Of a stretch of DNA of 64,000 nt, positions 7,328 to 43,609 are shown piece after piece; the stretch's first letter is position 1, and each line of letters starts with the position of its first letter. The stretch comes from a virus, in IMG/VR virus record IMGVR_UViG_3300020439_002657, positions 1 to 64,000 of that record, one strand, 5' to 3'. The notes under the pieces were generated by a model, which did not search any database, was not told where the DNA came from, and saw nothing but the letters and a program-made list of their open reading frames with translations. The position numbers and the translations under genes are program-made.

Positions 7328-7333
7328 TATCGG
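7328..7333 (-). promoter_or_regulatory. late-promoter motif CCGATA for the lysis cassette
   Basis: CCGATA on the minus strand, 24 bases before the ATG at 7303. A CAAA sits 15 bases further upstream, where a sigma-28-type minus-35 would be. Confidence 0.7.
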
Positions 7334-7339
7334 GCAACG

Positions 7340-8230
7340 TCAGAGGACTTTGAAACCGACTCCTGAATAGGCGTGGGCGCGAGTCTTGAACCAGTTTTCT
7401 TCCCACTTCTGCTTTTCGGCAATCCTGGCACCATAGTAGGCGCTGGTTGCGGACATCGTGGTGCCGATGGATTCTGATAGCGAGCCGACAGAAACACTGG
7501 AATTGGCCAGGCCACCGACGATCCCATCCCCGTAGGCGCTCATTACATCGATGGTCATACGATTGATCAGCACCTCTTTGAGCTCTCGGGGAACCCGATC
7601 CGCGTGGTCATAGCCCGTTGTGTAATCGATGAAATGGGCGGCTGCATGCCGTCCGGTACCGAACCGCCATTGAGCAATTGGCATCCCGCTGTATCCGGCA
7701 TAGGATCCGGTATTAAAGAGAGCGGCCCGCATGGTTCCCCGGCGGTAATTGATTAGAGCATAATCTGTCAGATTAATCAGCGTTTCTCCGGTGAAAGGAC
7801 TCTTCACTTCCCAGTTGTGAAGCCTTGCCAGGGGGCGGCGGCGGAGCTTCACAAAGAAGTTCTTATCATGCTGGTTGCCGTCGAACATATAGAAATCGTC
7901 CCACTCGGCATAGGGCTCGATCTCCCGATGGTTGCTGTTGCGGACCGGCCTGGATCTCCAGAGTCGTGGGTAGATATCGAACTGGAGTCTTTCCTGGAGA
8001 ACCCGGACATTATGATCCAGCCAGTTCTTCAGCTGGTAGTTGGTGAGCTGTTCCCCGTTTACAGTTACGAGCAGGCTGTTCCCAACGAAAATAACTCTGC
8101 GAAGTTCGTCGGGATGCAGGAGGCAGCCCCAGCGGGCAGGGGGATCCTCTCCCGGTGACAGGCGCATTCCGAGGTCTCGGTACTCATAGTCCTGGGACTG
8201 ATCGTTGAACTCTCCCTGCCAGTTAGCCAT
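7340..8230 (-). CDS. neck or head-tail adaptor protein candidate
   Basis: The 296-residue protein resembles a group of phage neck/adaptor proteins. Its C-terminal third has I-D-Y-T-T-G-Y, then R-E-L-K-E-V-L-I-N, then a Ser/Gly-rich stretch (S-V-S-V-G-S-L-S-E-S-I-G-T-T) and Y-Y-G-A-R-I. I recall this pattern from connector-type structural proteins encoded near portal genes, and the portal here is 0.9 kb away on the other strand. No enzymatic motif is visible. It is transcribed just ahead of the lysis cassette from its own CCGATA box 26 bases before the start, with no Shine-Dalgarno sequence. Confidence 0.5.
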   Translation of the reverse strand: MANWQGEFNDQSQDYEYRDLGMRLSPGEDPPARWGCLLHPDELRRVIFVGNSLLVTVNGEQLTNYQLKNWLDHNVRVLQERLQFDIYPRLWRSRPVRNSNHREIEPYAEWDDFYMFDGNQHDKNFFVKLRRRPLARLHNWEVKSPFTGETLINLTDYALINYRRGTMRAALFNTGSYAGYSGMPIAQWRFGTGRHAAAHFIDYTTGYDHADRVPRELKEVLINRMTIDVMSAYGDGIVGGLANSSVSVGSLSESIGTTMSATSAYYGARIAEKQKWEENWFKTRAHAYSGVGFKVL

Positions 8231-8256
8231 GTATCAGGACTTAATTGACATCTTGC

Positions 8257-8262
8257 TATCGG
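8257..8262 (-). promoter_or_regulatory. late-promoter motif CCGATA for the neck gene
   Basis: GCCGATAG on the minus strand, 26 bases before the ATG at 8230. It matches the sigma-28 minus-10 consensus GCCGATAA in seven of eight positions. Confidence 0.75.
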
Positions 8263-8303
8263 CCCATAGGCTTCAGTCCAAATTTTTGGAGGTGAATAGA
8301 TCA

Positions 8304-8714
8304 ATGAAACAGATGATTCTGGTTTTAGTTTTCATGTCCCCGATCCTGTCCGTAACAGGGGAGCCTTCATTGATAACGGCGAAGGAGTTCGAGGTCTTCG
8401 CGGCCCAAAGGGCCGGGGAAAAGGTATGTATGAAAGGCCAGTTTTCTAAGGTATTTCAAGCCCATGTAAGACTCTATGATATTGAGGATAAGATGATAGG
8501 CTTTACCATGGACGATTCAAAGGGAGAATACTTCCAATATGCTATGGCCAAGAAATCGAAGCTTGCCAGCGAGCTGCTATCTCTGAAAGAAGATACACCG
8601 ATTCGCGCATGCGGCCACATTAAGATGGTTCCTGTCCCGATCGCCGGGAGTACGGATGCAGATCCTTTTTTTATGGTCCATGAGGTTGCCGTGCTTTCCG
8701 AACCTTCTGAATGA
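8304..8714 (+). CDS. secreted protein of unknown function
   Basis: The 136-residue product has a cleavable signal peptide (M-K-Q-M-I-L-V-L-V, hydrophobic to about residue 16). The rest contains two Cys (K-V-C-M-K-G and I-R-A-C-G-H) in a pattern that could form an OB-like beta barrel. The start at 8304 is set by GGAGGTG nine bases upstream. It is a plus-strand singleton between minus-strand phage genes, which suggests an accessory gene expressed from its own promoter in the lysogen. No family was recognised. Confidence 0.6.
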   Translation: MKQMILVLVFMSPILSVTGEPSLITAKEFEVFAAQRAGEKVCMKGQFSKVFQAHVRLYDIEDKMIGFTMDDSKGEYFQYAMAKKSKLASELLSLKEDTPIRACGHIKMVPVPIAGSTDADPFFMVHEVAVLSEPSE

Positions 8715-8727
8715 CCCATTTCCGGCT

Positions 8728-9009
8728 TCAGCCCAGATAGAATCCAACAATTCTATCTACACCAGTTGTGTCGGTAAAATGCGCGGCGGTGACCGGGTGG
8801 TGAAACTCCCGATTTCCGCTACCGGAACGAGTTCCACTTTTCCCGCTGATGCAGTCATAAGTAAGTGTCCACCCGGCCCCCGCTTCGATAGCGGTGACAA
8901 TGAATACTTTCTTTGAATCCTGAAACAGGGTATCCCCCGGGGGCAGGGAGAAGTGGTTCTCCAATGATTTCCGCTCAATGTCTGCGATATTGGGTAGGGT
9001 CTTGCGCAT
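8728..9009 (-). CDS. small phage protein of unknown function
   Basis: The 93-residue product starts M-R-K-T-L-P-N-I-A. It contains A-G-A-G-W-T-L-T-Y-D and a His-rich middle; no family was recognised. The start at 9009 is preferred over upstream codons because a CCGATT box sits exactly 25 bases before it, as in the other late genes. It is convergent with the secreted-protein gene and divergent from the portal gene. It could be a head completion protein, given its neighbours. Confidence 0.5.
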   Translation of the reverse strand: MRKTLPNIADIERKSLENHFSLPPGDTLFQDSKKVFIVTAIEAGAGWTLTYDCISGKSGTRSGSGNREFHHPVTAAHFTDTTGVDRIVGFYLG

Positions 9010-9034
9010 GACCGGACCATAGCAGTCCAAGGGC

Positions 9035-9040
9035 AATCGG
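9035..9040 (-). promoter_or_regulatory. late-promoter motif CCGATT
   Basis: CCGATT on the minus strand, 25 bases before the ATG at 9009. An A-rich minus-35-like segment (AAAA) lies 16 bases upstream of it. Confidence 0.6.
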
Positions 9041-9110
9041 TCAGATTTTTCAGATATTTTTCCCCGGAAAAAACCTGGAAAAACCCGGTAAAAACCCCCC
9101 CGTTGCTTCT

Positions 9111-9116
9111 CCGATG
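9111..9116 (+). promoter_or_regulatory. late-promoter motif CCGATG for the portal gene
   Basis: CCGATG, 26 bases before the portal ATG at 9143. TAAAAA lies 16-18 bases upstream. The leader has no Shine-Dalgarno sequence and ends in C before the ATG. Confidence 0.7.
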
Positions 9117-9142
9117 CCCTGCATTCTGCTACTGTTCGAGCC

Positions 9143-10774
9143 ATGGCAAACGGAAAGCCCGGTCGACCCAGAGGCCCGAACTACGAAAAGAACCTCCAGA
9201 AGAGACTCCGGGCTGCCCGGAATCGACAGTCGCAGGCACAGCGCGCCCGGGAGGATATCCGGGAATTCAAGGACTCCAGGATGTACGCGCTGGCGAAGTC
9301 CATGTTCCACGGCGTTCAAGCGAGAGAACAGGAAGAGAAAAAGCCGGTCTTTACATCCGAAGAGCAAAGCCTGATCAACCAGGGAATCCGGCTCCGCAAT
9401 CCTGACCGCCCCTCTTTCAATGACCTCCGGAAACTATCCTATTCCAATACTCTGGTCGGTGCCATCCACAAAGTCAGAATCGATGATCTTGGTCAATTTG
9501 GTCGGCCGTTCCGAGAGAAGGAGGGGTTCGATTTCGATCTGGAAGATCCGGACAAATCCCCGGGGGATGGGGACAAGGAGCTAATCCGGGATGCCAGGAA
9601 ATTCTTTGAGTTCATGGGCGACAAGGTGGAGGGCTGGCAGAACCGGGATCGTTTCCATGCAGTATTCCAATTCATGATCCGGGATACTTTAGCCATCGAC
9701 AGTGTGGCTTTCTATCTGGTCCGGAATCGGAGGGGTCAGGTTGTCGAAGTCAAGTATCTGGATCCCGCAACTATCTACCCCACAATTGAGTCCGGATACA
9801 AGAATGACCCACGGATCCGCTGGGTGCAGATCGTGAATAGTACAGTGGTCGAAACCTTTACAGATGAAGAGATCATTGTGCGCCACCAGAATGAGTTGAG
9901 CGATGTTCGGTACCGAAACTCGGGGCTCTCTCCTGCAGAGGTTTCCGTGATGGAAATCATCGCCACAATGAATGCCCTGAAGTTTAATCGGGATCGGTTC
10001 TCCAATAATCCGCCTCCAGGGTTTCTCTACCTTCCTGGGAATATGCCTCAGGAAGTCTTGGATGATCTCCAGGTGCAATGGGAGAACATGTTCTCGGGGA
10101 ACAATAACAATCACCGGATCCCCTTGATTACGTCCGAGGCCCAGGATCTCAAGTTCACCAACCTCAATACACTGAGCGACATGGCATTCGAAAAGCTGAT
10201 GCAATGGGTCACGACCTTTACCCTGGCCGCCCATGGAATGGACCAAGCGGAGCTCGGCCTGCGTTTGATGGGTAGCCAGGGACTGTCTGAAGGATCTATG
10301 GATGGGCGGATAGATGCCGCAATGACCAGGGCAAAGAAGTCGATGCTATCCTATTTTGCAGACGTATGCAACGATATAAAGGAGACTGTGGACAGGTACG
10401 AACCACTGGTTTTCGTCTTCAATGGAGTTGAGAAGGAGGATGAAGATAAGCGCCTGGAGAGGGACGAGAAGCTGGTTAAGTCCATTGAGCTCATGGATGA
10501 AGTGCGGAGCCGAAGGGATATGCCGACTGTGGGAGAGGCACTCCGGAAAATCTATGACCTTTCCGATGAAGACTTCGAGCAGGTGAAGTACGCCGGGGCC
10601 TTCGTATTGGATACAAACTGGAGTCAATCTGGAGCTCAGCTTGTGCAGAATCTTGCCGGTGGTGGCGAGGGGGATATGGGGATGCCTCCAGAAGCCCCGG
10701 AGCAACAGGAATTCGATTTCGAAGACTACGATCCTTCCCAGGAAGACAATCCCCCGGAAGGGGACTGGGGCTGA
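9143..10774 (+). CDS. phage portal protein
   Basis: The 543-residue protein has the organisation of HK97-like portals. A basic, Arg-rich N-terminus leads to a wing region with Y-L-D-P-A-T-I-Y-P (about 222-230). E-I-I-V-R-H-Q-N and S-G-L-S-P-A-E-V-S follow (about 262-285), then a clip/stem region and an acidic, Pro/Glu-rich tail from about 510. Portals form the dodecameric ring at the capsid vertex through which DNA is packaged and ejected. The terminase that should dock on it is not in this window. The gene is on the opposite strand to the capsid operon and 24 kb away from it, an unusual separation. Confidence 0.85.
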   Translation: MANGKPGRPRGPNYEKNLQKRLRAARNRQSQAQRAREDIREFKDSRMYALAKSMFHGVQAREQEEKKPVFTSEEQSLINQGIRLRNPDRPSFNDLRKLSYSNTLVGAIHKVRIDDLGQFGRPFREKEGFDFDLEDPDKSPGDGDKELIRDARKFFEFMGDKVEGWQNRDRFHAVFQFMIRDTLAIDSVAFYLVRNRRGQVVEVKYLDPATIYPTIESGYKNDPRIRWVQIVNSTVVETFTDEEIIVRHQNELSDVRYRNSGLSPAEVSVMEIIATMNALKFNRDRFSNNPPPGFLYLPGNMPQEVLDDLQVQWENMFSGNNNNHRIPLITSEAQDLKFTNLNTLSDMAFEKLMQWVTTFTLAAHGMDQAELGLRLMGSQGLSEGSMDGRIDAAMTRAKKSMLSYFADVCNDIKETVDRYEPLVFVFNGVEKEDEDKRLERDEKLVKSIELMDEVRSRRDMPTVGEALRKIYDLSDEDFEQVKYAGAFVLDTNWSQSGAQLVQNLAGGGEGDMGMPPEAPEQQEFDFEDYDPSQEDNPPEGDWG

Positions 10775-10780
10775 AGCACC

Positions 10781-14145: not shown

Positions 14146-14532
14146 TTAGCCCATCAGTACTTTGAGTTCAACTTTGCCGTTGGTTACAGGGGTGCCGACT
14201 TCCAGACTCGTCACATCTCCAGTCAGAACATACAGGCCTTTGCGCGCCCGATCCTGGGTGTCGCCATCCACCCGGACGTGGAAAGGCGCAAGGTCACCGG
14301 CCTGGATTCCAGCTTGCGTATCATCCTGAGTATAGGTGGCTCGGATAATCAGGTAGTTTAGCGTGGAAGGAATGATCGGGATGTTTACCAGGTTATCCTG
14401 GTCATTGATCCAGTAGGTAAGGTGCTGCGGTTCCTGGGTCTGGGCCTCCAGCTCGATCTTCGGGAGAATAGAGCGTTCTTTCTGCGATTCGCTGCGGGCC
14501 AGAGTCTCCACAATAATGCGGTGTGTTTCCAT
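14146..14532 (-). CDS. fibre- or baseplate-associated protein of unknown function
   Basis: The 128-residue beta-rich protein (M-E-T-H-R-I-I-V-E-T-L) heads the fibre operon and lies seven bases before the large fibre gene. No family was recognised; a fibre-baseplate connector is plausible. A CCGATA box sits exactly 25 bases before its start, with no Shine-Dalgarno sequence. It is divergent from the tape measure gene. Confidence 0.55.
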   Translation of the reverse strand: METHRIIVETLARSESQKERSILPKIELEAQTQEPQHLTYWINDQDNLVNIPIIPSTLNYLIIRATYTQDDTQAGIQAGDLAPFHVRVDGDTQDRARKGLYVLTGDVTSLEVGTPVTNGKVELKVLMG

Positions 14533-14557
14533 GGCTGGAGTATCCCTGGAAGAGGGC

Positions 14558-14563
14558 TATCGG
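14558..14563 (-). promoter_or_regulatory. late-promoter motif CCGATA for the fibre operon
   Basis: TCCGATAG on the minus strand, 25 bases before the ATG at 14532. CAAA lies 17 bases upstream of the hexamer. Confidence 0.75.
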
Positions 14564-14574: not shown

Positions 14575-14580
14575 CCGAAG
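14575..14580 (+). promoter_or_regulatory. degenerate late-promoter motif before tape measure gene
   Basis: CCGAAG, 24 bases before the ATG at 14605. The spacing matches the other late genes, but the hexamer is only a partial match. Confidence 0.35.
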
Positions 14581-14604
14581 TTTGATCCATCAATAGGATC
14601 AGGT

Positions 14605-16335
14605 ATGCCTATCAATGTAAAACTCGACCTGGACGATAGACAGGCCAGGCAGCAGGTCGAGAAGTTCCGAAAGCAGGCCGGTCAACCCATTAAGACGGCA
14701 GTCGACGCTGGCCAGGCAGGTCCTCAATCCTATGCCGCTGTGCAACGCCGCCGCATGGAGGAGAAGCGGCAAGAGCAAAAAAAGCGGGAAGTCTATCAGA
14801 ATGCACAGCAGGCCGCCCAGCAGGCACAGTCCGGCGAAGAAGAGTTCCTTAGAGGTGGGTTCTACAATGCTGCCAAAGACAAGATCGATGCGCTGAAGCG
14901 TACCCGGGACATGTTCCGCCGGGACAAAGACAAGGACAACAGGGGAGCGGAATCGGAAGGCGCGGGTGGCGGCCCCGATGCGCTGCAGAGTGCAGCGAAC
15001 GCCGGAGGCGGAATGTTCGGTCGCCTGTTCGGGGAGAAAAACGCCAAGAAGAACAAGCCCATCCAACGGCTATATGTGCAGAACGCAGTCTTTCGGAATG
15101 CCCGGGGGCTTGGCGGAAGCGGATCTGGCAGTGGCTCCGGCAGTGAGTCCGGGGGAGGAGGAAAGCCCGGGGGGACAATGTCCGGGATGGGAAAAGCGGC
15201 TCCATACATTGGCATAGCTTTTGCTGTCGCCGGGGCACTTGTGAAAGCCATATCCGCGATGGGTGAGAAGCGCTCGAATGCTCGGATGTCCCAGCAGCAG
15301 TCTCTGAAGGCCATAGGTCTGACCAATTACCAGGGTGGGCTATTTCATCATGCCGAAGCAGGTATGGCCAATCTTGAGTTCCTGAAGCAATCCGGGATGC
15401 GGAGGGGCTACAAACTCACTCATTCCTCGTCCAGAGGTGGCGATCCTAATGCACTTAGTTTTGCTGCATCACAAGGGCTTGGCGCATCGGAGTTTGCGAG
15501 TACTCTTGGAAAGCTTCGCTATGGTGGGATGGACATGAAGACAATGGAGTTCGTAAGGTACATGAAGGCCGCGAATGTCCAGAACCTGCGCCAGGGAGAG
15601 TATCTCCAGGAAATTGCCGGCCATACCAAGGGCATGCGCGATCAGGGATATGGCGCCATGGATAAGACCGAGATGAAGAATTTCCTCGGCCTTGCCGCGC
15701 AGATGTCCTCCACTCAGTCGAGCAATGGAAGCACAGCAAGCAGAGGGCTGGAAATTGCCAAGGCAGTAGACAAATCGATTCGTGGCGCTGACAAGGGTGG
15801 GCCTCTCGGGTCGCTCGTGCTTTCTCAGCTCATGGCATCCGGAATGGACCCTCTGGAGGCCTATATGCAAGCTGAACAGGGCATGGGGAATGAGCAGAAT
15901 CGGAAGATCGCCGAAAAATTCCGGAAAGAAATGTTTGGTGGAAACAAATTTGCTCAGGGCATTGCTTTTCGGAATTGGGGATTGACGTCCTCGGTCAATG
16001 AAGGAGCCAATATTCGATTTGACAAAGCGAGCCCTGCAGGAAGTGCAAAAATTCCCGTCAATTCGATGCGTTCCATTGAATTGCGCAATAAGACGGAAAT
16101 GGCTTATGCAACCAGCCCGACCGCTGCCAAAGCGATGGAGATTTCTCATGATGCGCAGATGCAAATGCTCGACCTTATGAAGAAAATGGAGCCCAATCTT
16201 AGGCCCATCGCGGATGGGATTCACAAAGCTGAATCCGCTCTATTCGAGTTTGTAAATGAAGCGGTCCCCGTGATGGGTAAGCTCGTAGAAACCATAAAGG
16301 ATGTAGGAGATGGTTTGGCAGACTTTCTGGGATAG
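14605..16335 (+). CDS. tail tape measure protein candidate
   Basis: The 576-residue protein has the usual tape measure start (alternating hydrophobic I-N-V-K-L-D-L-D-D, then helical Q-V-E-K-F-R-K). A charged coiled-coil region runs to about 110, followed by a Gly/Ser-rich linker (about 165-190). A hydrophobic segment comes next (about 198-215, Y-I-G-I-A-F-A-V-A-G-A-L-V), then a long helical remainder. Tape measure proteins set tail length and may reach the host membrane. The ATG at 14605 is used because upstream codons overlap the divergent promoter. Normally this gene follows the tail chaperones on the same strand; here it is inverted relative to them, together with the next gene. Confidence 0.65.
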   Translation: MPINVKLDLDDRQARQQVEKFRKQAGQPIKTAVDAGQAGPQSYAAVQRRRMEEKRQEQKKREVYQNAQQAAQQAQSGEEEFLRGGFYNAAKDKIDALKRTRDMFRRDKDKDNRGAESEGAGGGPDALQSAANAGGGMFGRLFGEKNAKKNKPIQRLYVQNAVFRNARGLGGSGSGSGSGSESGGGGKPGGTMSGMGKAAPYIGIAFAVAGALVKAISAMGEKRSNARMSQQQSLKAIGLTNYQGGLFHHAEAGMANLEFLKQSGMRRGYKLTHSSSRGGDPNALSFAASQGLGASEFASTLGKLRYGGMDMKTMEFVRYMKAANVQNLRQGEYLQEIAGHTKGMRDQGYGAMDKTEMKNFLGLAAQMSSTQSSNGSTASRGLEIAKAVDKSIRGADKGGPLGSLVLSQLMASGMDPLEAYMQAEQGMGNEQNRKIAEKFRKEMFGGNKFAQGIAFRNWGLTSSVNEGANIRFDKASPAGSAKIPVNSMRSIELRNKTEMAYATSPTAAKAMEISHDAQMQMLDLMKKMEPNLRPIADGIHKAESALFEFVNEAVPVMGKLVETIKDVGDGLADFLG

Positions 16336-20219: not shown

Positions 20220-20985
20220 TGGATTCTCCTTGAACGACGCTGTGCCCAGCATCGAAGTCGAATAGCCCTCGGGTCTTGAAAACCGTGCGGCTATCTTCCA
20301 TGTGTATATCAAAGCCGGTAATATCGGGGAAGAGGTGGGCTGGCTTTTTGCGGAAGACTCTGCGCGGTTGGCGGAGTTTGACCGGAATCTCGAATCCCCA
20401 GACGGGGCTTGCGAATTGGTTCGAGGTAATGTTCACCTCATGGGTTTCATCGATATCAACCTTGACTCCGGGGAATGCCTCCATGATATCCTGGGCCATC
20501 GGAGCCATCAGCGATTCGACCGTTTCATAGAGTATGCGGAGAGTAGGGCGCCCTGCACCTCCGGATGTGAAGCCAGCAATGATGACTTCAGATTGAACCA
20601 TGTGCAGCCAGGTTTCGACGATGTCGGCTTCACCGAGTTCCTCTGCCGCAGCCTCCGGAGCTGCACGGGATTCACGTGGAAGGGAGGAAGTGTAGTTATG
20701 AAGGGCGGCCCGAAAACGATCGGTAGGCTTAAAACGGCGGAAATTGTGCCCTATATAGTCTTCTCGAATATCTCTGGTCCACTCCACCCCAACTCGGGGA
20801 AAATTGCGGTCGAATCCGGACTCAGAAATCCCTTCAACAAACAGTGGGTGGCCATTGATTACAGGCGCATCTACGTTGCGTGTTCGAAGTCCGGTCAGAG
20901 GCAAATTGCCCTGGAGCCAGAGCTTCACCGTATTCTCGGGCGGAGCAATATGAACGGTCAGAATTGTGGGGCGGGGATCGGCCAC
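20209..20985 (-). CDS. tail completion or terminator candidate
   Basis: The 258-residue protein begins at a GTG (M-A-D-P-R-P-T-I-L-T-V) and opens the sheath-tube operon, a usual place for tail terminator or neck proteins. It contains aromatic and Arg-rich segments and no enzymatic motif. A CCGATA box lies exactly 25 bases before the GTG, which supports this non-ATG start. No family was recognised. Confidence 0.5.
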   Translation of the reverse strand: MADPRPTILTVHIAPPENTVKLWLQGNLPLTGLRTRNVDAPVINGHPLFVEGISESGFDRNFPRVGVEWTRDIREDYIGHNFRRFKPTDRFRAALHNYTSSLPRESRAAPEAAAEELGEADIVETWLHMVQSEVIIAGFTSGGAGRPTLRILYETVESLMAPMAQDIMEAFPGVKVDIDETHEVNITSNQFASPVWGFEIPVKLRQPRRVFRKKPAHLFPDITGFDIHMEDSRTVFKTRGLFDFDAGHSVVQGESNGQ

Positions 20986-21010
20986 GCTCTGATTGTGGGC
21001 CTTTCCTGAT

Positions 21011-21016
21011 TATCGG
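21011..21016 (-). promoter_or_regulatory. late-promoter motif CCGATA for the sheath-tube operon
   Basis: ACCGATAA on the minus strand, 25 bases before the GTG at 20985. It matches sigma-28 minus-10 GCCGATAA in seven of eight positions. Confidence 0.75.
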
Positions 21017-23671: not shown

Positions 23672-25090
23672 TCAGTCATCCACTACCATTTCCACACCTT
23701 CGCCTTCGCCCGCCACGTCCTCCATGGCCTCTATCCGTTTCATTTCTTCTTCGGTGAAGCCCCATTCATCGCGGGCCAGAGCCTGCAGCAGCTCGGCATC
23801 GGTACGTTTTTGCTCCTTCTCTTCCATATCTTCTCCTCCCTTCACTATTGCTATGCGTTGTTCACGGGAGAGCCTGGATTTGATAATCTGAAACAGCCAG
23901 GATTTTCCGATCCTGTTTCTGAACTTTGAATAATGCTCGGAGTCATGGATAGTCTCAGATGCATTCGTCTTTGTATAGACGAGCCGTGAAGGCTCTCCCA
24001 GCTTCACATTTGTGTCATAGATGGCTGCAGAATCAACCATCTCTGCGATCTTCTGGAACCCGCTCGGGATACCGGCATAAGCACCTTTCAGAACGCCGTC
24101 CGGGACGTAGCGGCCGGTTTTTCTCGCTCGCTGTTTGGCGCGATCCAGAGCAACATCCATCGGGGTGTCAGCCATCATAAGCTTGATTTCGTATCCCTGG
24201 TCCCTGAGCTTCTGGATATTCTTTTCGTAGGATGCTGTCTTTGAACCTGTCCCATCGATAACCAGGTTCTTCCGGGCATTGATGGCTTCTTCTCTGATCT
24301 GCTTCACCAGGTAGCTGGACTCTTCGTGCGCCATTTCGGCCGCTTTTTTCAATCGGTTGTTCACCCCAACGCGATATTCCGGAATCAGGTTCTTTACTGC
24401 ATCAGCATCGGCGACAACGAAATCTTCCATGCTACCCAGACCAGCGGACTTCACCATCGTCGACTTGCCGGATGCCGGGCCACCCATCATCATAATAGCA
24501 ACCGGTTTCTCCCCGGACGGCACGGTCGGCTTCCCTTCAAGAAAGCGCTGCTTGATTAGGTTGTGCAGGAACTCCCGGCTCTCCTTTGGCTCTCCACCTT
24601 CATCTGGATGGCCGGTGAAGTGTTCCTCCCAGGTTTCCGAAGGCATCCCTTCTGGAATTCCTTCATTCCACCGACCAGGTCGAGGGATAGGATCACCAAT
24701 GTTCGGGTTCGTTACAATATTATAGAATGCCTGGGCCTTGGCCGATTCAACATCAGCGGGAGCCCATATCTGGTTTACGCCCTGGTCTTTGTACTTGCGT
24801 TCTCTGGGTTTCTTGCCGGTGCCCTTCTTTGCCTTTCCGCTTTTGTCGGACCCGTCGTTTCTGGATTGAGATTGTTTGCTACGGACAGACTGGTCGGAGC
24901 TGGAGGATCCGGCTTCCCTGTCACCGGTACTTTTCTTGGAGTCCGTATCCGACTTTCCCGGGGCTTTTGCTTTGGATTTCTCCTGCTCCGGGTTTACGTA
25001 AACGGTCTGGCGACGGCCTTTCTTATTCGTAATGACTTTGCGGACGAGATGAGCTCGATTGGCCGCCTTAAGAATATGAATGCCCTTCAT
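23672..25090 (-). CDS. zeta-toxin-like kinase with N-terminal shared module
   Basis: The 472-residue protein starts with the shared module (residues 3-36; core L-V-R-K-V-I-T-N-K-K-G-R-R-Q-T-V-Y-V-N). A Ser/Lys-rich linker leads to a zeta-toxin/AAA-like kinase domain (about 200-400). Its Walker A is G-G-P-A-S-G-K-S-T, D-A-D-A-V-K-N-L-I-P follows near 229-238, and N-L-V-I-D-G-T-G lies near 275. Zeta toxins phosphorylate UDP-N-acetylglucosamine sugars. No epsilon-type antitoxin is recognised, though a 68-residue gene lies just upstream. With the module, it may be a packaged protein ejected into the host. A CCGATA box sits 25 bases before the start. Confidence 0.7.
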   Translation of the reverse strand: MKGIHILKAANRAHLVRKVITNKKGRRQTVYVNPEQEKSKAKAPGKSDTDSKKSTGDREAGSSSSDQSVRSKQSQSRNDGSDKSGKAKKGTGKKPRERKYKDQGVNQIWAPADVESAKAQAFYNIVTNPNIGDPIPRPGRWNEGIPEGMPSETWEEHFTGHPDEGGEPKESREFLHNLIKQRFLEGKPTVPSGEKPVAIMMMGGPASGKSTMVKSAGLGSMEDFVVADADAVKNLIPEYRVGVNNRLKKAAEMAHEESSYLVKQIREEAINARKNLVIDGTGSKTASYEKNIQKLRDQGYEIKLMMADTPMDVALDRAKQRARKTGRYVPDGVLKGAYAGIPSGFQKIAEMVDSAAIYDTNVKLGEPSRLVYTKTNASETIHDSEHYSKFRNRIGKSWLFQIIKSRLSREQRIAIVKGGEDMEEKEQKRTDAELLQALARDEWGFTEEEMKRIEAMEDVAGEGEGVEMVVDD

Positions 25091-25115
25091 GGACCCGTTA
25101 TAGCCGGAAAACGGC

Positions 25116-25121
25116 TATCGG
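25116..25121 (-). promoter_or_regulatory. late-promoter motif CCGATA for the kinase gene
   Basis: CCCGATAG on the minus strand, 25 bases before the ATG at 25090. The leader has no Shine-Dalgarno sequence. Confidence 0.75.
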
Positions 25122-25133: not shown

Positions 25134-25340
25134 TCAGTCTCCGGTCTGTAGATCGTCCATCTCAAGGTCGTTATCCAGAATCACTGCGTAACGGAGCATT
25201 TGTTCCACTGTTACTGGTTTCCCCTCCTGCATGCAAATTGAGGCCAGGGAATCGTAGACCCTGTCCGGACCCAGACTCGCCAGGTGTGGGAAATCAGCCT
25301 GCACTGCTTCAAAGAGCTGCTGCTTGATGTCTGCGTTCAT
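25134..25340 (-). CDS. small protein between DarB-like and kinase genes
   Basis: From the ATG at 25340 (GAAGGAAG upstream) it encodes 68 residues, M-N-A-D-I-K-Q-Q-L-F, ending in an acidic tail. It overlaps the end of the large upstream gene by 32 bases. No family was recognised. Its place beside a zeta-like kinase makes an antitoxin or inhibitor conceivable, but there is no sequence support for that. Confidence 0.55.
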   Translation of the reverse strand: MNADIKQQLFEAVQADFPHLASLGPDRVYDSLASICMQEGKPVTVEQMLRYAVILDNDLEMDDLQTGD

Positions 25341-31300: not shown

Positions 31301-32097
31301 TGCGCCATAAGTCGGTCGCCTTTGCTTCCATACTGCTTTACGATGACGGGAATCTGAAAATTGTCCGGTAGTTTCCCTTCGCTGATAAGTTCCTTTACCG
31401 CTGTGAATCGGTGGTGCCCCGAAACGATATTGTAGGTTCCGTTGTCCGTATCGACCTGAAGAGGGAAGGCCGGATTGTAACCATTCCGGAGGATGCTGGC
31501 CTTGATGCCATCGATTGTCTTTCTGTCGTAGTTGCGCTTGTCTGTGTACTGAGACAGCTCCCGGATCTGGTCATGACCAACGAAGGAGAGAGCGGTTGCC
31601 GGGGAATCCGATGCTGTCCGGTCTTTTCCCTCAGTGGGCTCCGGCTTCTCTTTGTTGAAGGCTTCTGACTGCTCGGATTCAACAGGTGCCCCGGATAGAG
31701 GATCCTTTCCTGAAGCCCGAGCCTGCTCTTGTGCCGCATGCCACTTCTTCTGGGCCTCCATCCGTTTTCTCTTTGCAGCCTCTACTGCAGGTGGATGGGG
31801 ACCCGGAGAATACCGCTTGTCTCCCGCTTGCTTGCCATAGGCCTCTTCCAGCGCTGCACTGAATTCTGCATCGGCCCTTTGAAACTCCTTTCGAGCCTCC
31901 GCGACAGGGGATAGAGCCTGTGATTGTTTTTGTGGGGCAGAAGGTGGACTTCCAGACTTATCTGGTTTAACGTATACTGTTTGCTTGTGGCCCCGTCGGT
32001 TTGTGATGACCTTGCGAATGAGATGCGCTCTGGAACGGGGGCCTGCCATAGCAGCCCCCATCCGTTCTTTCAACACTTGCAGGAATTTCCGACGCAT
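25309..32097 (-). CDS. DarB-like antirestriction methylase-helicase with ParB-like domain and two shared modules
   Basis: The 2262-residue protein is a string of domains. A shared basic module (about 15-48) is followed by a ParB-like nuclease/CTPase-type domain (about 175-345, with S-G-H-H-R-F). A second copy of the module lies near 535-580. An N6-adenine methylase has A-G-T-G and N-P-P-Y (near residue 1016). A SNF2-like helicase has V-G-L-G-K-T (near 1480), D-E-A-H-N (near 1630) and a C-terminal lobe with R-G-W-R-Q-G-N (near 2000). A long coiled coil ends it. Phage P1 DarB, of nearly the same length, has methylase and helicase parts and is packaged in the head to protect incoming DNA from restriction. 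A CCGATA box lies 25 bases before the start. Confidence 0.8.
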   Translation of the reverse strand: MRRKFLQVLKERMGAAMAGPRSRAHLIRKVITNRRGHKQTVYVKPDKSGSPPSAPQKQSQALSPVAEARKEFQRADAEFSAALEEAYGKQAGDKRYSPGPHPPAVEAAKRKRMEAQKKWHAAQEQARASGKDPLSGAPVESEQSEAFNKEKPEPTEGKDRTASDSPATALSFVGHDQIRELSQYTDKRNYDRKTIDGIKASILRNGYNPAFPLQVDTDNGTYNIVSGHHRFTAVKELISEGKLPDNFQIPVIVKQYGSKGDRLMAQMSENVRRTVNPLDEARAIGELTEMGHSVSEIAEKTGMNPGTVRRRKALTGLHSDLQKLIEKKDRSLPVGIAEAIGTHGLNPDGSKNATIQNKAHRFYNANRHRGFGAAEVISYMQELKSQNSDQIWSVDETRTEAEKQAVQSLGSEEKAKRNTAQIDKFLNNVQSSFQRLLGDSVGSLNESTLKELSNSLVATEGESGFRSKMDQLSALMNDLETVKRTLEQNFNKIKEESSNHSLAFARSMAVIEASQDAIHVLKSAHRKTRVIDKTRFLEVLKAKGKGKGKSARNRAHLVRKVITNKKGHKQTVYVNPDETNQAQAEQIGEFTLKRRGKFIDVLGNLFKESGLYMALNSLTDKKGKPIEGENDQGSIGATYPYLVTNYKKIREQLLGVARGPADNREQDLSPADVRNIPDEIESEVKGDKARSLWKRASERFPNLDAGTFVDHLVEYLLHRDKYEDLFSQQSLFQEPSETPANSAKDSGSKGTVSTPNPAPFRKDLLRFIHEQWSESIQSDPRSIEKAEERYNAAERDLEESAREAYGNRSSDMLEYANSRVHPPEVQEDLDQRNEARVSLLETRKESQIRESRIRASVETGKARVGVKTQHAINEEVRQILKSVPPEKMTEEQKELLRQYEGWGGQTRNDKTDYSGKGLLYEFYTPEKVVNKSWELLERYIPKGSKILEPAAGTGRFAEGRPDYSFDMLEVDDTSSQIAGILHPDASVRKGQFEELFLDNRNRSKKQYDGPLYDAVVTNPPYGEMGGKYKASEGRGWQRYEEYFLHRSLDTVKEGGIVAMVVPSNFLRKGKTKAKEKIFNKAELLEAHRLPNGTFAHTDIGTDLIILRKNTTEHKDNAIAFGDEYFKRNPNHLHGEEHETTDRWGKPDLRTKGNIDTFLNHRPAAPKEISKAHKDAISRGLIGNQNAKGKHKVASSNRKTVKKKAVRNATRKTKNTAREKQSPPPKLLNQAEFNKKYGLNFSELDVELLKSTNALGYIDPQTPFDPKSMSFHNGGAMPDYLYATGDIYEKLKQLESDREEIIEKGGLQLYQKQRQMLEEAIPEQTPLKDVVLDPIDPFFKTVTLDDGSSLLDRFKEWVGDLDYETFMDYAASASDVRAYCDAIPVRGNNKSLNERIRRERRELAMKLADRFVKESLGEAEQNQIQQAWNERFNAYVQVDPAKVPIPIEGLNEKFKGKDYELRDVQHRFIANFLSKGIGCAAHEVGLGKTMTGIIATVSNMQMGRSKRPLFVVPTSVLPNWEASVKSLYPNLTVNTIGTPELNQMTQGGKQLEIEEGSVTVMSYDAFQRMGFTEERFNELTKDLQDAHATYSDDPKNKRAKAAKENQAEAFASRAKTGTYNDILFDEAGFDSLTVDEAHNFNNIFADVKQEKDPETGKVKTQANEFSGIIGGATSDRGLKMWLAAQHVLKSNDNRNVMMLTATPFTNNPLQVYSLLSTMARERLQKMGIYNVKDFVAAFVETQTEKVLEPNGKIKEKQTVRRFKNAHAFASLINEFFDRKTGEDAHIKRPDLVEKEIVLPSNKEMDQIRQSLENYYDMAFHPDPEERDPSAALRSMTMQQNLNISPALVNDYQFNDNRQDFVERSPKMKFVAKSAAEYYKRMKEAQGNAPGQIIFLPRGVEYFNEVKSYMVSQGIPEDAIEIMTPKEKGKKARSKEAKAKGQSRFEEIKFDFNDPNGKTKIIIGSDTIQEGVSLQKNTGVMYNCSLAWNPTSNEQKKGRGWRQGNTQERCHMFYPVMENSIDTKLYQKHAEKVSRINDIFKATGSPFIETTDINPDELKYEIVTDPEKKARLVASEDETQRLAAIKDKTTDRNILLSTLNRAENLDRRIRDAEESLKRSQRWAEMYGKNSTLGRFHAEDANRIKSKLSRLKRDKVEHETMMEQKGLTVEKLRSQAEALEKEIAQMKADSSKKKEELESELVERYRREKEEYEKSRPNKSIDQMVDEHVSKLVDSSLGKSVYKSRIYRLIREGRTHERRHQAAAL

Positions 32098-32121
32098 GGC
32101 CGGATACTACGTTCAATCGAC

Positions 32122-32823
32122 TTATCGGTCCACTTCGGCCAGCGCAGTAAGCTCGATTACAGTCTGAATCTCAAAGACAAGCCGGTCTGCATAGTGTACC
32201 GCATCCTTCAGTGAACCTGGATCCGGTTCGCCGTTCTCGTCTTTGTCCACCAGGGGCTCTGGATCGATAACTCGAGGTTTGTACTCTTTGCGTAGTTCCT
32301 TGTTGATTTTTTCGATATCCTTTCTGAGTTGTTTCGGTTGAACCAGAATGGAAAAGAAATCGAAGTGAATAGGCGGTATCAAGATGATCCAGGCATCCGG
32401 GCGAATCGCATGAAGTTCGCGGGCAGATTCCGGAACCGTTTTCATCTTTCGATGGAGAGCATTGTTGCCGCCAAGATTGCAGACCGTTTCAGCATCGCCA
32501 ACAAGCCATAGGACGAGTTTCCCGATCCATGTTTCAAAGAAATCGACCCATTGGTCCAACCTCGATCCACCGATACCGCCAGAAATGGCAACTACGTCAA
32601 AACCGATCATCACTTTCAAGCGGGACATTACCTCACTGTTCGAATCTCCGAACAGGAAGAGGCGTGGACCGCCTACGAGATAGGACAGCATTAACTGAAC
32701 GACGAGTCTGGGGGCATAATGAATGATCTTGTCCCCGGCGCCGATCTTTCTGGGAATCAATCCCTTGATGGCAAACCAGAGACACTGGAAAATGAAATTC
32801 AGAGTCTTTTGGAGGGTTTTCAT
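32122..32823 (-). CDS. SGNH/GDSL hydrolase-like protein
   Basis: With the start at 32823 the product has 233 residues. It shows the SGNH blocks: G-D-S-N-S (block I, about 57-61), G-G-I-G-G-S-R (block II), L-G-G-N-N (block III) and D-A-V-H (catalytic Asp-x-x-His, near 210). These enzymes hydrolyse esters, often of acylated sugars. It may act on host surface or cell wall acyl groups, but the substrate is unknown. The start at 32823 is chosen because a CCGATA box lies 26 bases before it; an earlier ATG (32922) overlaps the divergent fic start. It lies just upstream of the DarB-like gene. Confidence 0.65.
   Translation of the reverse strand: MKTLQKTLNFIFQCLWFAIKGLIPRKIGAGDKIIHYAPRLVVQLMLSYLVGGPRLFLFGDSNSEVMSRLKVMIGFDVVAISGGIGGSRLDQWVDFFETWIGKLVLWLVGDAETVCNLGGNNALHRKMKTVPESARELHAIRPDAWIILIPPIHFDFFSILVQPKQLRKDIEKINKELRKEYKPRVIDPEPLVDKDENGEPDPGSLKDAVHYADRLVFEIQTVIELTALAEVDR
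32123..32128 (-). promoter_or_regulatory. late-promoter motif CCGATA for the DarB-like gene
   Basis: ACCGATAA on the minus strand, 25 bases before the ATG at 32097. It lies inside the last codons of the upstream hydrolase gene. No Shine-Dalgarno sequence follows. Confidence 0.75.
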
Positions 32824-32849
32824 GCACCCGAGTAGGCCATAGAAAAGGC

Positions 32850-32855
32850 TATCGG
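32850..32855 (-). promoter_or_regulatory. late-promoter motif CCGATA for the hydrolase gene
   Basis: CCCGATAG on the minus strand, 26 bases before the ATG at 32823. The following bases (GCC, a T run, then CGGG) closely resemble those after the kinase-gene motif. Confidence 0.7.
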
Positions 32856-34824: not shown

Positions 34825-34829
34825 GGCTC

Positions 34830-34857
34830 AAAAAAAGCCCCGGCAAACTGCCGGGGC
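34830..34857 (-). terminator. intrinsic terminator after the capsid gene
   Basis: On the minus strand GCCCCGGCAGTTTGCCGGGGC forms a strong GC stem followed by seven T. It lies 36 bases after the capsid stop. The next gene starts directly behind it, so read-through or a separate promoter must serve that gene. Confidence 0.85.
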
Positions 34858-37070: not shown

Positions 37071-37937
37071 CTATGCCGCTCCAAAGTTACCTGTTAGCAG
37101 TACGCCGTTGGCGACTTGCTTGGCTAAATCCGTATCAAAGCCAAAGCTATCGGTCAAAAAGCTGACTATGGGATCGGGTTGCAGGGGCAGGGTGCCGCAT
37201 TTGATCGCATCCACCACTTCACGAGCGATAGCTTCCTGCATGGATGGTTGCGAAAGGACCAATCGCGTGAGCCGACCGACCTGCATCTGTAGATCCTGAA
37301 TTATCTGGTCACGGATTTCTGTATCGGGCAAGGTGTCGGTTGCGCCCGTCTGCTCTTCGGTGTAGTAGTCCTCACCGGCCTTGATCAGCTGAATGAGTTT
37401 AGACTTGGCCAGTTGAACGCTTGTATCCGGATTGATGACTTCCTGGAGCGGGGCGATTGCGATCTTTTTCAGGAGCATCTTCTTGAAAGTGTTGCCTTCC
37501 AGGTCCCTCGGGCTCGCAAAACCAGAGATCGAAGCACCCCAGCCGGACCAGCCGGATTCAAGACCCTTGCGGATTTCCTGGACGTATTCATTGTCTGCGA
37601 ATAGATACCCCTGTGAATATACGCCATCATCCCCGACGAACAACGACTTGTCGGGATCGGGATATCCAATGATGGCTCTTGCTTTGGCCTTCTGCAGCTC
37701 CACAAGTTCGGTGCCGGAGACACCTTTCATCTGTTTGTCCAGAATATCTGTTATGTGGTTATAGTCGTAGTAGCCTTCCCTGGAAAACGACCGTTGCATG
37801 TCCGGGTCTGCAAACGCGCTCTTTAGGACACGCTCGCCGTGCCGGTCTTCTCCTTCAGTGGAGGCTCGAATCAGAACTTTCAGCCGTCCGGAATTCTCTT
37901 CGGCTTTGATAATATGGCAGGGATGGGTAAATTCCAT
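37071..37937 (-). CDS. prohead protease (HK97 type, peptidase S78-like)
   Basis: The 288-residue protein has the herpes/HK97 protease pattern. G-Y-Y-D-Y-N-H-I carries the catalytic His (about residue 62). G-W-S-G-W-G-A-S-I-S-G near 133-142 carries the catalytic Ser. Upstream R-L-K-V-L-I-R-A-S-T-E-G-E-D-R-H-G-E fits the usual N-terminal strand. It matures the procapsid by cleaving scaffold and capsid delta domains. It opens its own late transcript: a CCGATA box sits exactly 25 bases before the ATG. Confidence 0.8.
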   Translation of the reverse strand: MEFTHPCHIIKAEENSGRLKVLIRASTEGEDRHGERVLKSAFADPDMQRSFSREGYYDYNHITDILDKQMKGVSGTELVELQKAKARAIIGYPDPDKSLFVGDDGVYSQGYLFADNEYVQEIRKGLESGWSGWGASISGFASPRDLEGNTFKKMLLKKIAIAPLQEVINPDTSVQLAKSKLIQLIKAGEDYYTEEQTGATDTLPDTEIRDQIIQDLQMQVGRLTRLVLSQPSMQEAIAREVVDAIKCGTLPLQPDPIVSFLTDSFGFDTDLAKQVANGVLLTGNFGAA

Positions 37938-37962
37938 GCCTGCATTTGGGCTGGTTTTTTAC

Positions 37963-37968
37963 TATCGG
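37963..37968 (-). promoter_or_regulatory. late-promoter motif CCGATA for protease-scaffold-capsid
   Basis: CCCGATAG on the minus strand, 25 bases before the ATG at 37937. Confidence 0.75.
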
Positions 37969-37981: not shown

Positions 37982-38362
37982 TTATCCGACGCGTACCACG
38001 GCAAAGACGGTAGCCTTACCGATTACTGCACCAGGAGCGTTTATGTAAGCGTTGATTGTTGATGTGCCAAGGGTAATCCCGTAAACATCGATCATGTAGA
38101 GCCCCTCTTGATTCAGGTCGATTGAATCCGCGTCCGCATAGAGGTCTGAATCGCTGTTATTGCCGATTGTCATGCTGGCGGGCACGTCCCAGGGCGTTTC
38201 TACGCGGACACATAAGGCAACAATAACCGAATCATTAGGCAGGGCGTCTCCAACGGCAACGTTCGTCGCATTGTATGAGACTTCCCCTCTGGCAAGGGTA
38301 AGCTGAGCAAACATTTCTTCTATCTCGTAGTCCTCCGGGATATATGGCCCGATGTATGGCAT
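37982..38362 (-). CDS. small structural protein candidate
   Basis: The 126-residue beta-rich protein starts M-P-Y-I-G-P-Y-I-P-E-D-Y-E. It looks like a head decoration or stabilisation protein by composition and by its place just before the protease-scaffold-capsid genes. No family was recognised. A CCGATT box lies exactly 25 bases before its ATG. Confidence 0.5.
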   Translation of the reverse strand: MPYIGPYIPEDYEIEEMFAQLTLARGEVSYNATNVAVGDALPNDSVIVALCVRVETPWDVPASMTIGNNSDSDLYADADSIDLNQEGLYMIDVYGITLGTSTINAYINAPGAVIGKATVFAVVRVG

Positions 38363-38387
38363 CCGTTAGAGTGCCCTCCAAATCTGG

Positions 38388-38393
38388 AATCGG
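38388..38393 (-). promoter_or_regulatory. late-promoter motif CCGATT
   Basis: ACCGATTC on the minus strand, 25 bases before the ATG at 38362. It overlaps the last codons region of the upstream gene. Confidence 0.6.
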
Positions 38394-40142: not shown

Positions 40143-40144
40143 GA

Positions 40145-40465: not shown

Positions 40466-40521
40466 TTTTCTCTCCTTTTCCCGGCATCACCGGCTTCTAA
40501 AATCAAGCTATTGAAATACGC

Positions 40522-41028: not shown

Positions 41029-41045
41029 CGGGCCAGACGAGGGCG

Positions 41046-41819
41046 TTATGCGAAAGGGCGCCAGGTACTCCCATCGTTAGACCAGTAGAGATAATTTCCA
41101 TCCTGCCGGAAGAATACCTGGTTTCCTGGAGGACCTGGAAGACTCGTTCGGATAAAGTTTTTCAGATCATCCGCCGACTGCCGTTCTGCTATTTCCGTTG
41201 ATAGTTCGCTGAAAAGCTGGGAAATATTGTCGGTCACGGTAATCAGATCAAAGTCCGTCTGGATCTGGAGCTGGACATCGTCAATCGCCTGAAATGCGGC
41301 CAGCTTTTGATATCTTAAAAGCTCAAACCGGCCCGGGGTGACAGCCGGGTAGCTGGCCGACGTATTGTATTTCTCGTAGACTTTGATCCCGAATCTTTTT
41401 CGGGTCGGGCTCATGGCAGGATCCGCTTCCTCTGTGGCAGCGTTCCAGAAGTCGCGGGCCTCCTCGTCCACAATCTCTTCCACAAATTCGCATTCATAGA
41501 TGCCATAGTGGGCTTCCGGGGTCGGCGTCAAAGTGGTCGGGGCTATTTGAAAGACTGCCTCTTCCGTGATAATGACACCACGCTGAACGGTTATTTCCGT
41601 AGAGGTAAATGAAGGTGGCTTGAATCCCAGATAGCAAGTGTCCGTTAGATCCTTGCCAATGATCGCTCTTGCAACCAGGGTTGCGATTTTAAGCTGAGAA
41701 CCCTCGAAGTTCACTCCGGTCGCCGTGTTAATGTCATCAGACTCAATCTTTCTGAGCGGTTCCACATAGAGGATCTTAACTTCATTATCTTGAGAGGGGA
41801 TTTCCACCGTTGTCATCAA
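41046..41819 (-). CDS. baseplate-fibre linker-like protein
   Basis: The 257-residue protein has a beta-rich N-terminal two-thirds and a coiled-coil segment (about 185-215, L-S-T-E-I-A-E-R-Q-S-A-D-D-L). It ends in a short tip with L-P-G-P-P-G-N-Q-V-F-F-R, Q-D-G-N-Y-L-Y-W and W-R-P-F-A, as in many fibre-like proteins. It follows the baseplate I-like gene with a four-base overlap, so a fibre attachment role is likely. Confidence 0.55.
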   Translation of the reverse strand: MMTTVEIPSQDNEVKILYVEPLRKIESDDINTATGVNFEGSQLKIATLVARAIIGKDLTDTCYLGFKPPSFTSTEITVQRGVIITEEAVFQIAPTTLTPTPEAHYGIYECEFVEEIVDEEARDFWNAATEEADPAMSPTRKRFGIKVYEKYNTSASYPAVTPGRFELLRYQKLAAFQAIDDVQLQIQTDFDLITVTDNISQLFSELSTEIAERQSADDLKNFIRTSLPGPPGNQVFFRQDGNYLYWSNDGSTWRPFA

Positions 41820-42403
41820 TAGACTCCTGCGTAGACCGCGAATCCGGCGGCCAGGGTATCATACAATTTCTTCTTAATCTCGGAGCCGATATGGTCCGGA
41901 TCCTTTACGTAGACATAGATTGAGTTGGTACCGAACGTAAGAACTGAGCTCGCCATACGAACTTTCGTCTTTTTGGGGTCCTGAACACCCACATTGTAGT
42001 AACAAACATCCAGGAATGCCCCGACCTGTGCGCAGCCGAAGACCTGATACTTTGGCTCCGGAAAGATGCTCACCAGTGCCGGTCGGGCTGAGCTTACGGA
42101 GAGGATGCGGCCAATCATGTATCCGATGAAGTCTTCATCGGACATCGATGAAGGTCGCGGTATCCCATAGATATCCGCCCACTTTCGTAGAAATATTCCC
42201 CGCGCATTCCGAAGATCCACTTCATGCACGGCCCGCCGTTGGAAGCGGAGGTGCCATTCGATACTGTTTTCAATAGCACCCTTGTTAATATCGTTGATTG
42301 CCTGGACCGGATCCAGTTCGTTCCTGTTCGGATCGCCGACCAGGTCACGAAACACAGGTCCGGTTTGATTAAAGAAGGGCAGTAGCTGAAAGATTTCGCT
42401 CAC
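41816..42403 (-). CDS. baseplate protein, tail protein I-like
   Basis: The 195-residue protein has the arrangement of gpI/DUF2612-type baseplate proteins. A region with L-R-K-W-A-D-I-Y-G-I-P-R-P (about 75-87) is followed by D-E-D-F-I-G-Y-M-I-G-R-I-L. The C-terminal half then alternates beta strands and ends in a helix. It overlaps the baseplate J stop by four bases, the usual J-I gene order. Confidence 0.65.
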   Translation of the reverse strand: MSEIFQLLPFFNQTGPVFRDLVGDPNRNELDPVQAINDINKGAIENSIEWHLRFQRRAVHEVDLRNARGIFLRKWADIYGIPRPSSMSDEDFIGYMIGRILSVSSARPALVSIFPEPKYQVFGCAQVGAFLDVCYYNVGVQDPKKTKVRMASSVLTFGTNSIYVYVKDPDHIGSEIKKKLYDTLAAGFAVYAGVY

Positions 42404-43548
42404 TCGGGGACCTCCCGAGGCAGCGCGGTTCCCGAAATAGTTCCCCCGGAGGCCCCTCCGATCCGTGGCAGGTCTTGATCTTGAATCACGATATCTGATC
42501 CTGGAGACAGTAGATTCAATCTCAGGATATCTGGATGAGCCGTTAGCATCCGGGCCTGAAGCGTTTCGAATAGCACGTCCTGGCCGATAGGAAGGGAGTT
42601 GATATATCCGATTGCCGCCTGCTCAATTTTCTCTTCCGCTTCCTGGTCTGTCAGGGAGCTTCCTTCTACAAGGACGTATTCATAGGATACATTAACGGCC
42701 GTCACCTCAACCGAGCCAACGTAGACTCTGGCCCCACCCGCCGCATACCCCAGGTAGTCTGGATGGTTCAGTTCGCCGACGACTACCTTCTTCACTTCAT
42801 CAAGCAACGATTGTGGAGGGCTCGAGGTTCCATCCGACACATAGACATTGACCCATCCGGTCTGAGGCAAAAGAGAAATAGGGTTGATGTTGTCGTTTAC
42901 TACGGCTCCGGCCACACCGGGGATAGAAATGACCGCATTGTATATACCCCGCAGGGTGCTACGGCCCAGGTTGTTGATGAAATCCCTGAATCGACCAGCT
43001 CGCGATTCCTCCGTCTCAAGCTGGGTGCCTCCCTCAAAAGGGGCCGGATTCCAGACCCGGGTTCCGGGTTCGATCTGAGGGGATATCGTTCCACGACCAT
43101 CCAGGGTATCGATCTCCCCGGCGCGAATATTTCCGGAAACGCCGGGCTCTATGGCCCGGGCTTCTACCAGAACCACATTCTGGCCGACGGGAAGCGTAAT
43201 AGGTTCCACGGTCTCAAACCGCAGACCGAAAAGATCGATCGTAAAGATCGGATAATTGATTGCCTGGGTATGTCCGGATTTCTCCAGGCGGAGCAGTCCG
43301 GTTGCCTTTAGCCCCGGGAGGAGGGGAAAGCCAAACACTTCATAGACGGCATTTACAGCTTCCGCCTCGAAGCCCTGTAGTGTTTCCCGGTCTCCCCGGG
43401 CCAGGACGATGGCGATACCTTCCAGCAATGAGCCAATGCGGGATCCGGGACCGAAGTTGGACAGGCGCGAAGCTCTGGAGATCAGGTAGTTGACGAGTGC
43501 CTGGCGGTACTCTACGTCCGCACGCGGGATATATCTGCTCAGCGCCAT
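42400..43548 (-). CDS. baseplate J-like protein
   Basis: The 382-residue protein matches baseplate J family patterns. An N-terminal helical part has G-S-R-I-G-S-L-L-E-G (about 36-45). A beta domain follows with R-A-I-E-P-G-V-S-G-N-I-R-A-G-E-I (about 150-165). A later segment has S-I-P-G-V-A-G-A-V-V-N-D-N and V-N-V-Y-V-S-D-G. It forms the baseplate wedge of contractile tails. It heads the long baseplate-capsid block and is divergent from the LysM-gp25 gene. Confidence 0.82.
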   Translation of the reverse strand: MALSRYIPRADVEYRQALVNYLISRASRLSNFGPGSRIGSLLEGIAIVLARGDRETLQGFEAEAVNAVYEVFGFPLLPGLKATGLLRLEKSGHTQAINYPIFTIDLFGLRFETVEPITLPVGQNVVLVEARAIEPGVSGNIRAGEIDTLDGRGTISPQIEPGTRVWNPAPFEGGTQLETEESRAGRFRDFINNLGRSTLRGIYNAVISIPGVAGAVVNDNINPISLLPQTGWVNVYVSDGTSSPPQSLLDEVKKVVVGELNHPDYLGYAAGGARVYVGSVEVTAVNVSYEYVLVEGSSLTDQEAEEKIEQAAIGYINSLPIGQDVLFETLQARMLTAHPDILRLNLLSPGSDIVIQDQDLPRIGGASGGTISGTALPREVPE

Positions 43549-43576
43549 TGCGCCCGATAATAATACGCTATATTTT

Positions 43577-43582
43577 CATCGG
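43577..43582 (-). promoter_or_regulatory. late-promoter motif CCGATG for the baseplate J operon
   Basis: CCGATG on the minus strand, 28 bases before the ATG at 43548, the longest spacing of the set. It is part of a larger inverted repeat, GCCCGAT (43552-43558) and ATCGGGC (43578-43584). Confidence 0.5.
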
Positions 43583-43603
43583 GCAAACGGCTCGCTGCGT
43601 GGA

Positions 43604-43609
43604 CCGATG
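43604..43609 (+). promoter_or_regulatory. late-promoter motif CCGATG for the LysM-gp25 operon
   Basis: ACCGATGG, exactly 25 bases before the GTG at 43635. CAAA (43584-43587) lies 16 bases upstream, the sigma-28 minus-35 position. Confidence 0.7.

Follow-up and report, generated by a model that had tools for sequence, protein, structure and literature searches.

The question addressed here is what signal opens the scattered virion operons of a 64,000-nucleotide (nt) stretch of viral DNA, taken from the 71,572-base IMG/VR record IMGVR_UViG_3300020439_002657 and called the window below, in which the short sequence CCGAT lies at a nearly fixed distance before many gene starts on both strands. Based on the analysis of the window and its relatives, the most probable answer (probability about 0.82) is a bipartite late promoter, in which CCGAT replaces the −35 element, TANAAT serves as the −10 of a primary-type sigma factor, the mRNA begins at the start codon, and CCGAT is recognized by a phage factor.

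CCGAT sites at gene starts in the window

In the window, CCGATD (D being A, G or T) was found 24–28 nt before 13 gene starts; all positions and spacings given for them in the initial annotation were exact, and the variant CCGAAG was verified at 24 nt before start 14605. About 0.45 such sites would be expected by chance, given ∼80 gene starts (an estimated gene number), and the earlier claim that this arrangement is very unlikely to be accidental was upheld (Poisson P ∼4e-15). The bare hexamer is not rare, and with 145 occurrences it is mildly over-represented in the window relative to shuffled sequences (128 ± 11). The signal is the position of CCGATD, not its frequency.

A matrix trained on the relatives alone, with the close kin of the window excluded, recovered the window sites and added a well-scoring CCGAT promoter at record position 68994, beyond the window. 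This promoter heads a 103-amino-acid gene that lies shortly before a conserved late-type gene (phrog_3759). Another, weaker CCGAT promoter, also beyond the window, precedes the terminase small subunit gene at record position 65209.

Source genome and conservation in relatives

The window has a GC content of 53%. The capsid protein shares 41% identity with its counterpart in Leptospira phage vB_LbrZ_5399-LE1, and identities to Leptospira phages were 32–41% for the capsid and 35–40% for the portal protein, the homologous virion genes expected of an LE1-like phage. A ParA-type partition gene (2652–3371), which marks LE1-like leptophages as plasmid-prophages, was found together with a ParB gene, an anti-repressor, a repressor-like gene and myovirus structural genes. 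Based on this virion homology and gene content, the window can be assigned to an LE1-like temperate myovirus, a plasmid-prophage of the Leptospira phage LE1 family. When the baseplate protein was compared with a plasmid collection, it matched Leptospira plasmids only. A relative with 98% identity is present in IMG/VR, and the host is likely, though not proven, to be a spirochaete, because near-identical contigs were found in the assemblies named Spirochaetaceae bacterium NP47 and NP120.

Some 80 loci from LE1-like elements were gathered through alignment queries (a single-protein scan of viral contigs gave one near-identical relative only), the homologues of 63 genes of KF114876 were located, and their upstream regions were then read. 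In ∼50 related contigs with near-duplicates removed, CCGATD lay 24–33 nt upstream of 115 of 148 late operon heads, compared with 4 of 264 other genes; within this one clade, the pattern is confined to late operon heads. For individual genes opening late blocks, the homologues carrying CCGATD numbered 16/16, 20/21, 19/19, 15/16, 12/13, 17/20 and 18/23, among others. It was absent upstream of internal late genes, including the sheath gene (0/21) and 36316 (0/26), and upstream of most early genes of the relatives. Since the genomes compared extend from AT-rich phages of Leptospira to the window at 53% GC, base composition does not explain the conservation. These counts support the earlier proposal of one late-promoter class that heads scattered virion operons as a phage-specific regulon. 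Chance or annotation bias acting on a common hexamer, for which its mild over-representation in the window could be cited, is contradicted by the family-wide conservation at operon heads and the near absence elsewhere, and its probability is negligible.

A second element at a fixed distance

When 138 non-redundant sites of the relatives were aligned on CCGAT, the only other clear element was TANAAT, starting 19–21 nt after the first C (a spacer of 14–16 bp). Exact TANNNT was found in 42, 20 and 25 sites at offsets 19, 20 and 21, compared with 1–13 at other offsets, and the best-scoring −10 fell at offset 19 in 61 sites, compared with 9.4 in shuffles. In the window alone, xAxxxT was present exactly at offset 19 in 7 of the 13 sites, against 0–3 at the other offsets tested. 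This second element was overlooked in the initial annotation. An extended −10 (TG) was considered and rejected (9 sites, ∼7 expected).

The alignment bears directly on the suggestion that CCGATA is itself the −10 of a flagellar-type (sigma-28/FliA) promoter, with leaders of ∼12–20 nt. A sigma-28 promoter needs the −10 GCCGATAA and a −35 TAAA about 15–19 nt upstream. Window sites such as GCCGATAG resemble the FliA −10, and a sigma-28 gene is present in Leptospira according to a transcript study (PMC5243855). However, GCCGATAA occurred in 0 of the 138 sites, the base before CCGAT was G in just 7, no positional TAAA peak was seen upstream at about −17 to −20 (information content at most 0.1 bit), and the conserved downstream TANAAT is left unexplained; the host chromosomes likewise showed no excess of the pattern, as described below. 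The sigma-28 reading was rejected, and we consider it very improbable. The same sites speak to CCGAT as an operator or RNA element (a repressor site or part of a longer leader) instead of a promoter element. Partial palindromes occur at some window sites, such as CCCGATAGCCGTTTTCCGGCTATAACGGG before 25090; but no second half-site was conserved among the aligned sites, the sole other clear conserved element being a −10 with promoter geometry, and such a role is highly unlikely. A palindromic operator, seen at a few window sites and not conserved, was rejected.

In the relatives, the distance from the −10 to the start codon is 6 nt at 36 sites and 7 nt at 26. By convention a −10 occupies −12 to −7, and on this basis +1 is predicted to fall on the first base of the start codon. 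CCGAT would then lie at about −31 to −27, in place of a −35. The late mRNAs are thus predicted to be leaderless. Short leaders poor in Shine-Dalgarno sequences had been proposed before: the second part holds, as matches of at least 4 bases precede 13% of late heads compared with 38% of internal genes, and in place of a short leader there is probably none at all, since the −10 ends so close to the start codon. The observation that leaders end in C applies to the window (11/13) and fails in the family (22/138). Leaderless transcripts are common in Leptospira interrogans (PMC5243855), and the host genus is therefore able to use such messages.

The predicted late promoters of the window are as follows, with the CCGAT-to-start spacing in nt and, for some, the fraction of homologues with CCGAT upstream.

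7301..7333, minus strand: promoter of 6734–7303; CCGAT 7329–7333, spacing 24, −10 AATGGT 7309–7314, start ATG 7303
8228..8262, minus strand: promoter of 7340–8230 (tail fiber protein, phrog_772); CCGAT, spacing 26, −10 TAAGTC 8238–8243
9007..9040, minus strand: promoter of 8728–9009; CCGAT, spacing 25, −10 TATGGT 9016–9021
9111..9145, plus strand: promoter of the portal gene 9143–10774; CCGAT, spacing 26, −10 TACTGT 9130–9135
14530..14563, minus strand: promoter of the operon from 14532; CCGAT, spacing 25, −10 GATACT 14539–14544; 20/21 homologues
14575..14607, plus strand: variant promoter of 14605–16335; CCGAA, spacing 24, −10 TAGGAT 14594–14599
20983..21016, minus strand: promoter of the 20985 operon leading to the tail sheath, GTG start; CCGAT, spacing 25, −10 CACAAT 20992–20997; 16/16 homologues
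25088..25121, minus strand: promoter of 23672–25090; CCGAT, spacing 25, −10 TATAAC 25097–25102
32095..32128, minus strand: promoter of the 2262-amino-acid DarB-like polyvalent protein 25309–32097; CCGAT, spacing 25, −10 TAGTAT 32104–32109
32821..32855, minus strand: promoter of 32122–32823; CCGAT, spacing 26, poor −10 CCTACT 32831–32836
37935..37968, minus strand: promoter of the 37937 operon reaching the major capsid gene; CCGAT, spacing 25, −10 at about 37943–37949; 18/23 homologues
38360..38393, minus strand: promoter of 37982–38362; CCGAT, spacing 25, −10 CACTCT 38368–38373; 13/20 homologues
43546..43582, minus strand: promoter of the baseplate operon from 43548; CCGAT, spacing 28, −10 TATTAT 43557–43562; 8/10 homologues
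43604..43637, plus strand: promoter of the divergent baseplate operon from 43635, GTG start; CCGAT, spacing 25, −10 TAGACT 43623–43628; 12/13 homologues

The variant before 14605 fits the bipartite geometry, one base of CCGAT aside, and most portal homologues also have CCGAT upstream. At the divergent baseplate promoters the CCGAT elements stand back to back (43577–43609); in several Leptospira phages they are arranged as ATCGG-N7-CCGAT. The polyvalent protein (25309–32097, minus strand), which combines ParB, methyltransferase and helicase/DarB-like parts, has its own CCGAT late promoter, as expected of a protein that is packaged together with the DNA and injected alongside it. Directly before the ATG of the gene following the major capsid gene lies a terminator-like hairpin that includes a T run (34825–34856, minus strand), and similar hairpins occupy the same place in KF114879, in the relative locus L009 and in LE1; it possibly limits read-through and so sets capsid stoichiometry.

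A phage signal and its possible reader

When two candidate host assemblies were searched, the correctly spaced promoter pattern was found 120 and 109 times, phage sites included, and the wrongly spaced pattern 101 and 102 times. Wrong spacing was used as the control; a reversed pattern was judged unsuitable, since TAGCC and CCGAT are not equally frequent. No clear enrichment was seen in these spacing-controlled counts, on which the host-regulon reading was rejected; with no host-chromosome counterpart, CCGAT is therefore a phage signal. An alternative sigma factor, of host or phage, might read CCGAT as a short-spacer −35 together with TANAAT, as the near-fixed spacing of both elements would suit a single sigma factor. 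Against this, TANAAT is a primary-sigma −10, a host regulon with the CCGAT motif was not found in either assembly, and no sigma factor was present among the window proteins scanned, which took in part of the small open reading frames (ORFs). We regard this explanation as unlikely. The initial annotation had left the choice between a flagellar-type or phage-encoded sigma and an activator; the flagellar-type sigma falls away, and a phage-encoded activator is the best of the remaining options.

In the bipartite promoter favoured here, CCGAT[A/T/G] would form the upstream half, followed by a spacer of 14–16 bp, TANAAT and, usually 6–7 nt further on, the start codon. RNA polymerase with a primary-type sigma would read TANAAT as the −10, and a phage-encoded DNA-binding factor probably binds CCGAT and brings in or redirects the polymerase, much as MotA acts at the middle promoters of T4. 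The predicted transcription start lies at the start codon or within a few bases of it, 24–30 bases after CCGAT, so that ribosomes would translate the first gene of each late operon from a leaderless message and the genes behind it from conventional sites. The motif, its fixed geometry, its confinement to late operon heads within one clade and its lack of a host-chromosome counterpart were observed; where transcription begins, that the host polymerase is used and what reads CCGAT are inferred.

One gene of the window was singled out as the possible reader:

61845..62777, plus strand: candidate late regulator with a ParB_N domain and a C-terminal HTH_3 domain, phrog_3951 family

All 15 CCGAT-type records carry the ParB_N-HTH gene at full length; it is absent from all 9 LE1-type records. 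It was also found in 11 plasmids carrying the CCGAT-type baseplate gene and not in 2 LE1-type plasmids; when promoters were read directly in three plasmids, the 2 LE1-type plasmids had TTGTC and the 1 CCGAT-type plasmid had CCGAT on both divergent genes. ParA and the ParB_N-HTH_3 protein were the only clearly conserved non-virion proteins common to the window and three annotated CCGAT-type phages, and no relative of the latter was found among named phages outside the leptophage group. By association, this protein is the best candidate for the CCGAT reader, an assignment that we put forward as tentative.

LE1 and its clade lack CCGAT at their late genes. Their late heads carry TTG[AC], 20–22 bases, TTGTC, 5–8 bases and the start codon, often as TTGTCACTTCCC-ATG; this motif gave 27 matches, whereas shifted controls gave 0 and 3 and the CCGAT-type genomes 1, and it is mutually exclusive with CCGAT and the ParB_N-HTH gene.

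Starts preceded by the motif in LE1 (NC_048892): 5256, 8204, 13136, 28608, 32753, 43539, 48048
Loci with the motif: L007/L008 (LE1), L042–L047, L049, L053, L152, L153

Because this motif occupies the same place with respect to the start codon, it seems that the leaderless layout was kept and the promoter code was exchanged. A partition-derived ParB-family protein could have become the dedicated late activator of its clade, with CCGAT for the −35 and a leaderless virion regulon, while the sister LE1 clade swapped codes; this scenario is more conjectural than the assignment of the reader itself.

Several points weigh against the proposed promoter and its reader. The −10 is weak at the window sites 32823, 37937, 38362 and 20985, and weaker in the window than in the relatives. 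About one-fifth of the relatives' late heads have no CCGAT at the expected distance, partly because starts were miscalled or variant elements (CCGTTA, for example) are present, and late timing was deduced from gene content. The CCGAT-type and LE1-type phages form two clades, and the link with the ParB_N-HTH gene may represent a single evolutionary event; the AlphaFold model of the protein was poor (mean pLDDT 53) and gave no structural support, and another reader could have been missed, as the scan took in part of the small early ORFs. In KF114879, CCGTTA replaces CCGATA upstream of 26272, 35239 and 41954, which possibly co-varies with the regulator of that phage.

Comparison with known systems

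The MotA box of phage T4 is centred near −30. T4 middle promoters combine this box with a −10 and depend on sigma appropriation by AsiA and MotA (PMC7403470). As in T4, a phage-specific element replaces the −35 and the primary-sigma −10 is kept: a TATAAT-type −10 lies at a fixed distance, with the phage element in the −35 position if transcription starts at the start codon. Unlike in T4, the leptophage promoters serve late and not middle genes, the sequence is CCGAT and leaderless mRNAs are predicted; homologues of MotA or AsiA were not found among the scanned proteins.

P1 late promoters carry an inverted repeat near −22. Among the 138 aligned leptophage sites, no conserved dyad was found. 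P1, too, is a myovirus with a plasmid prophage, and its late operons are scattered and have in common specific promoters that depend on a phage regulator, the activator Lpa (PMC8198154), but the CCGAT element is not palindromic in the family and no Lpa homologue was seen.

We know of no ParB-like regulator that acts as a phage late activator. ParB-like transcription regulators include KorB (PMC11790492) and, as cited in PMC12704722, VirB and DndB. The candidate resembles them in combining a ParB_N domain with DNA-binding domains in proteins that regulate transcription, and differs in being a phage protein with a C-terminal HTH_3 domain and a role deduced from its distribution.

No description of leptophage late regulation was found in the literature searched, and Leptospira promoters are poorly defined. 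According to PMC5243855, Leptospira mRNAs commonly begin 0–10 nt from the start codon and only sigma-54 elements stood out among promoters; the study reports no CCGAT-like motif and, in the text available, does not treat phage promoters. The present analysis defines a late promoter precisely enough for it to be tested, names a candidate regulator, predicts late mRNA starts, and suggests that a whole phage late programme can be translated from leaderless messages. As sister clades of a single phage family use one or the other of two mutually exclusive late-promoter codes, the turnover of such a code becomes traceable.

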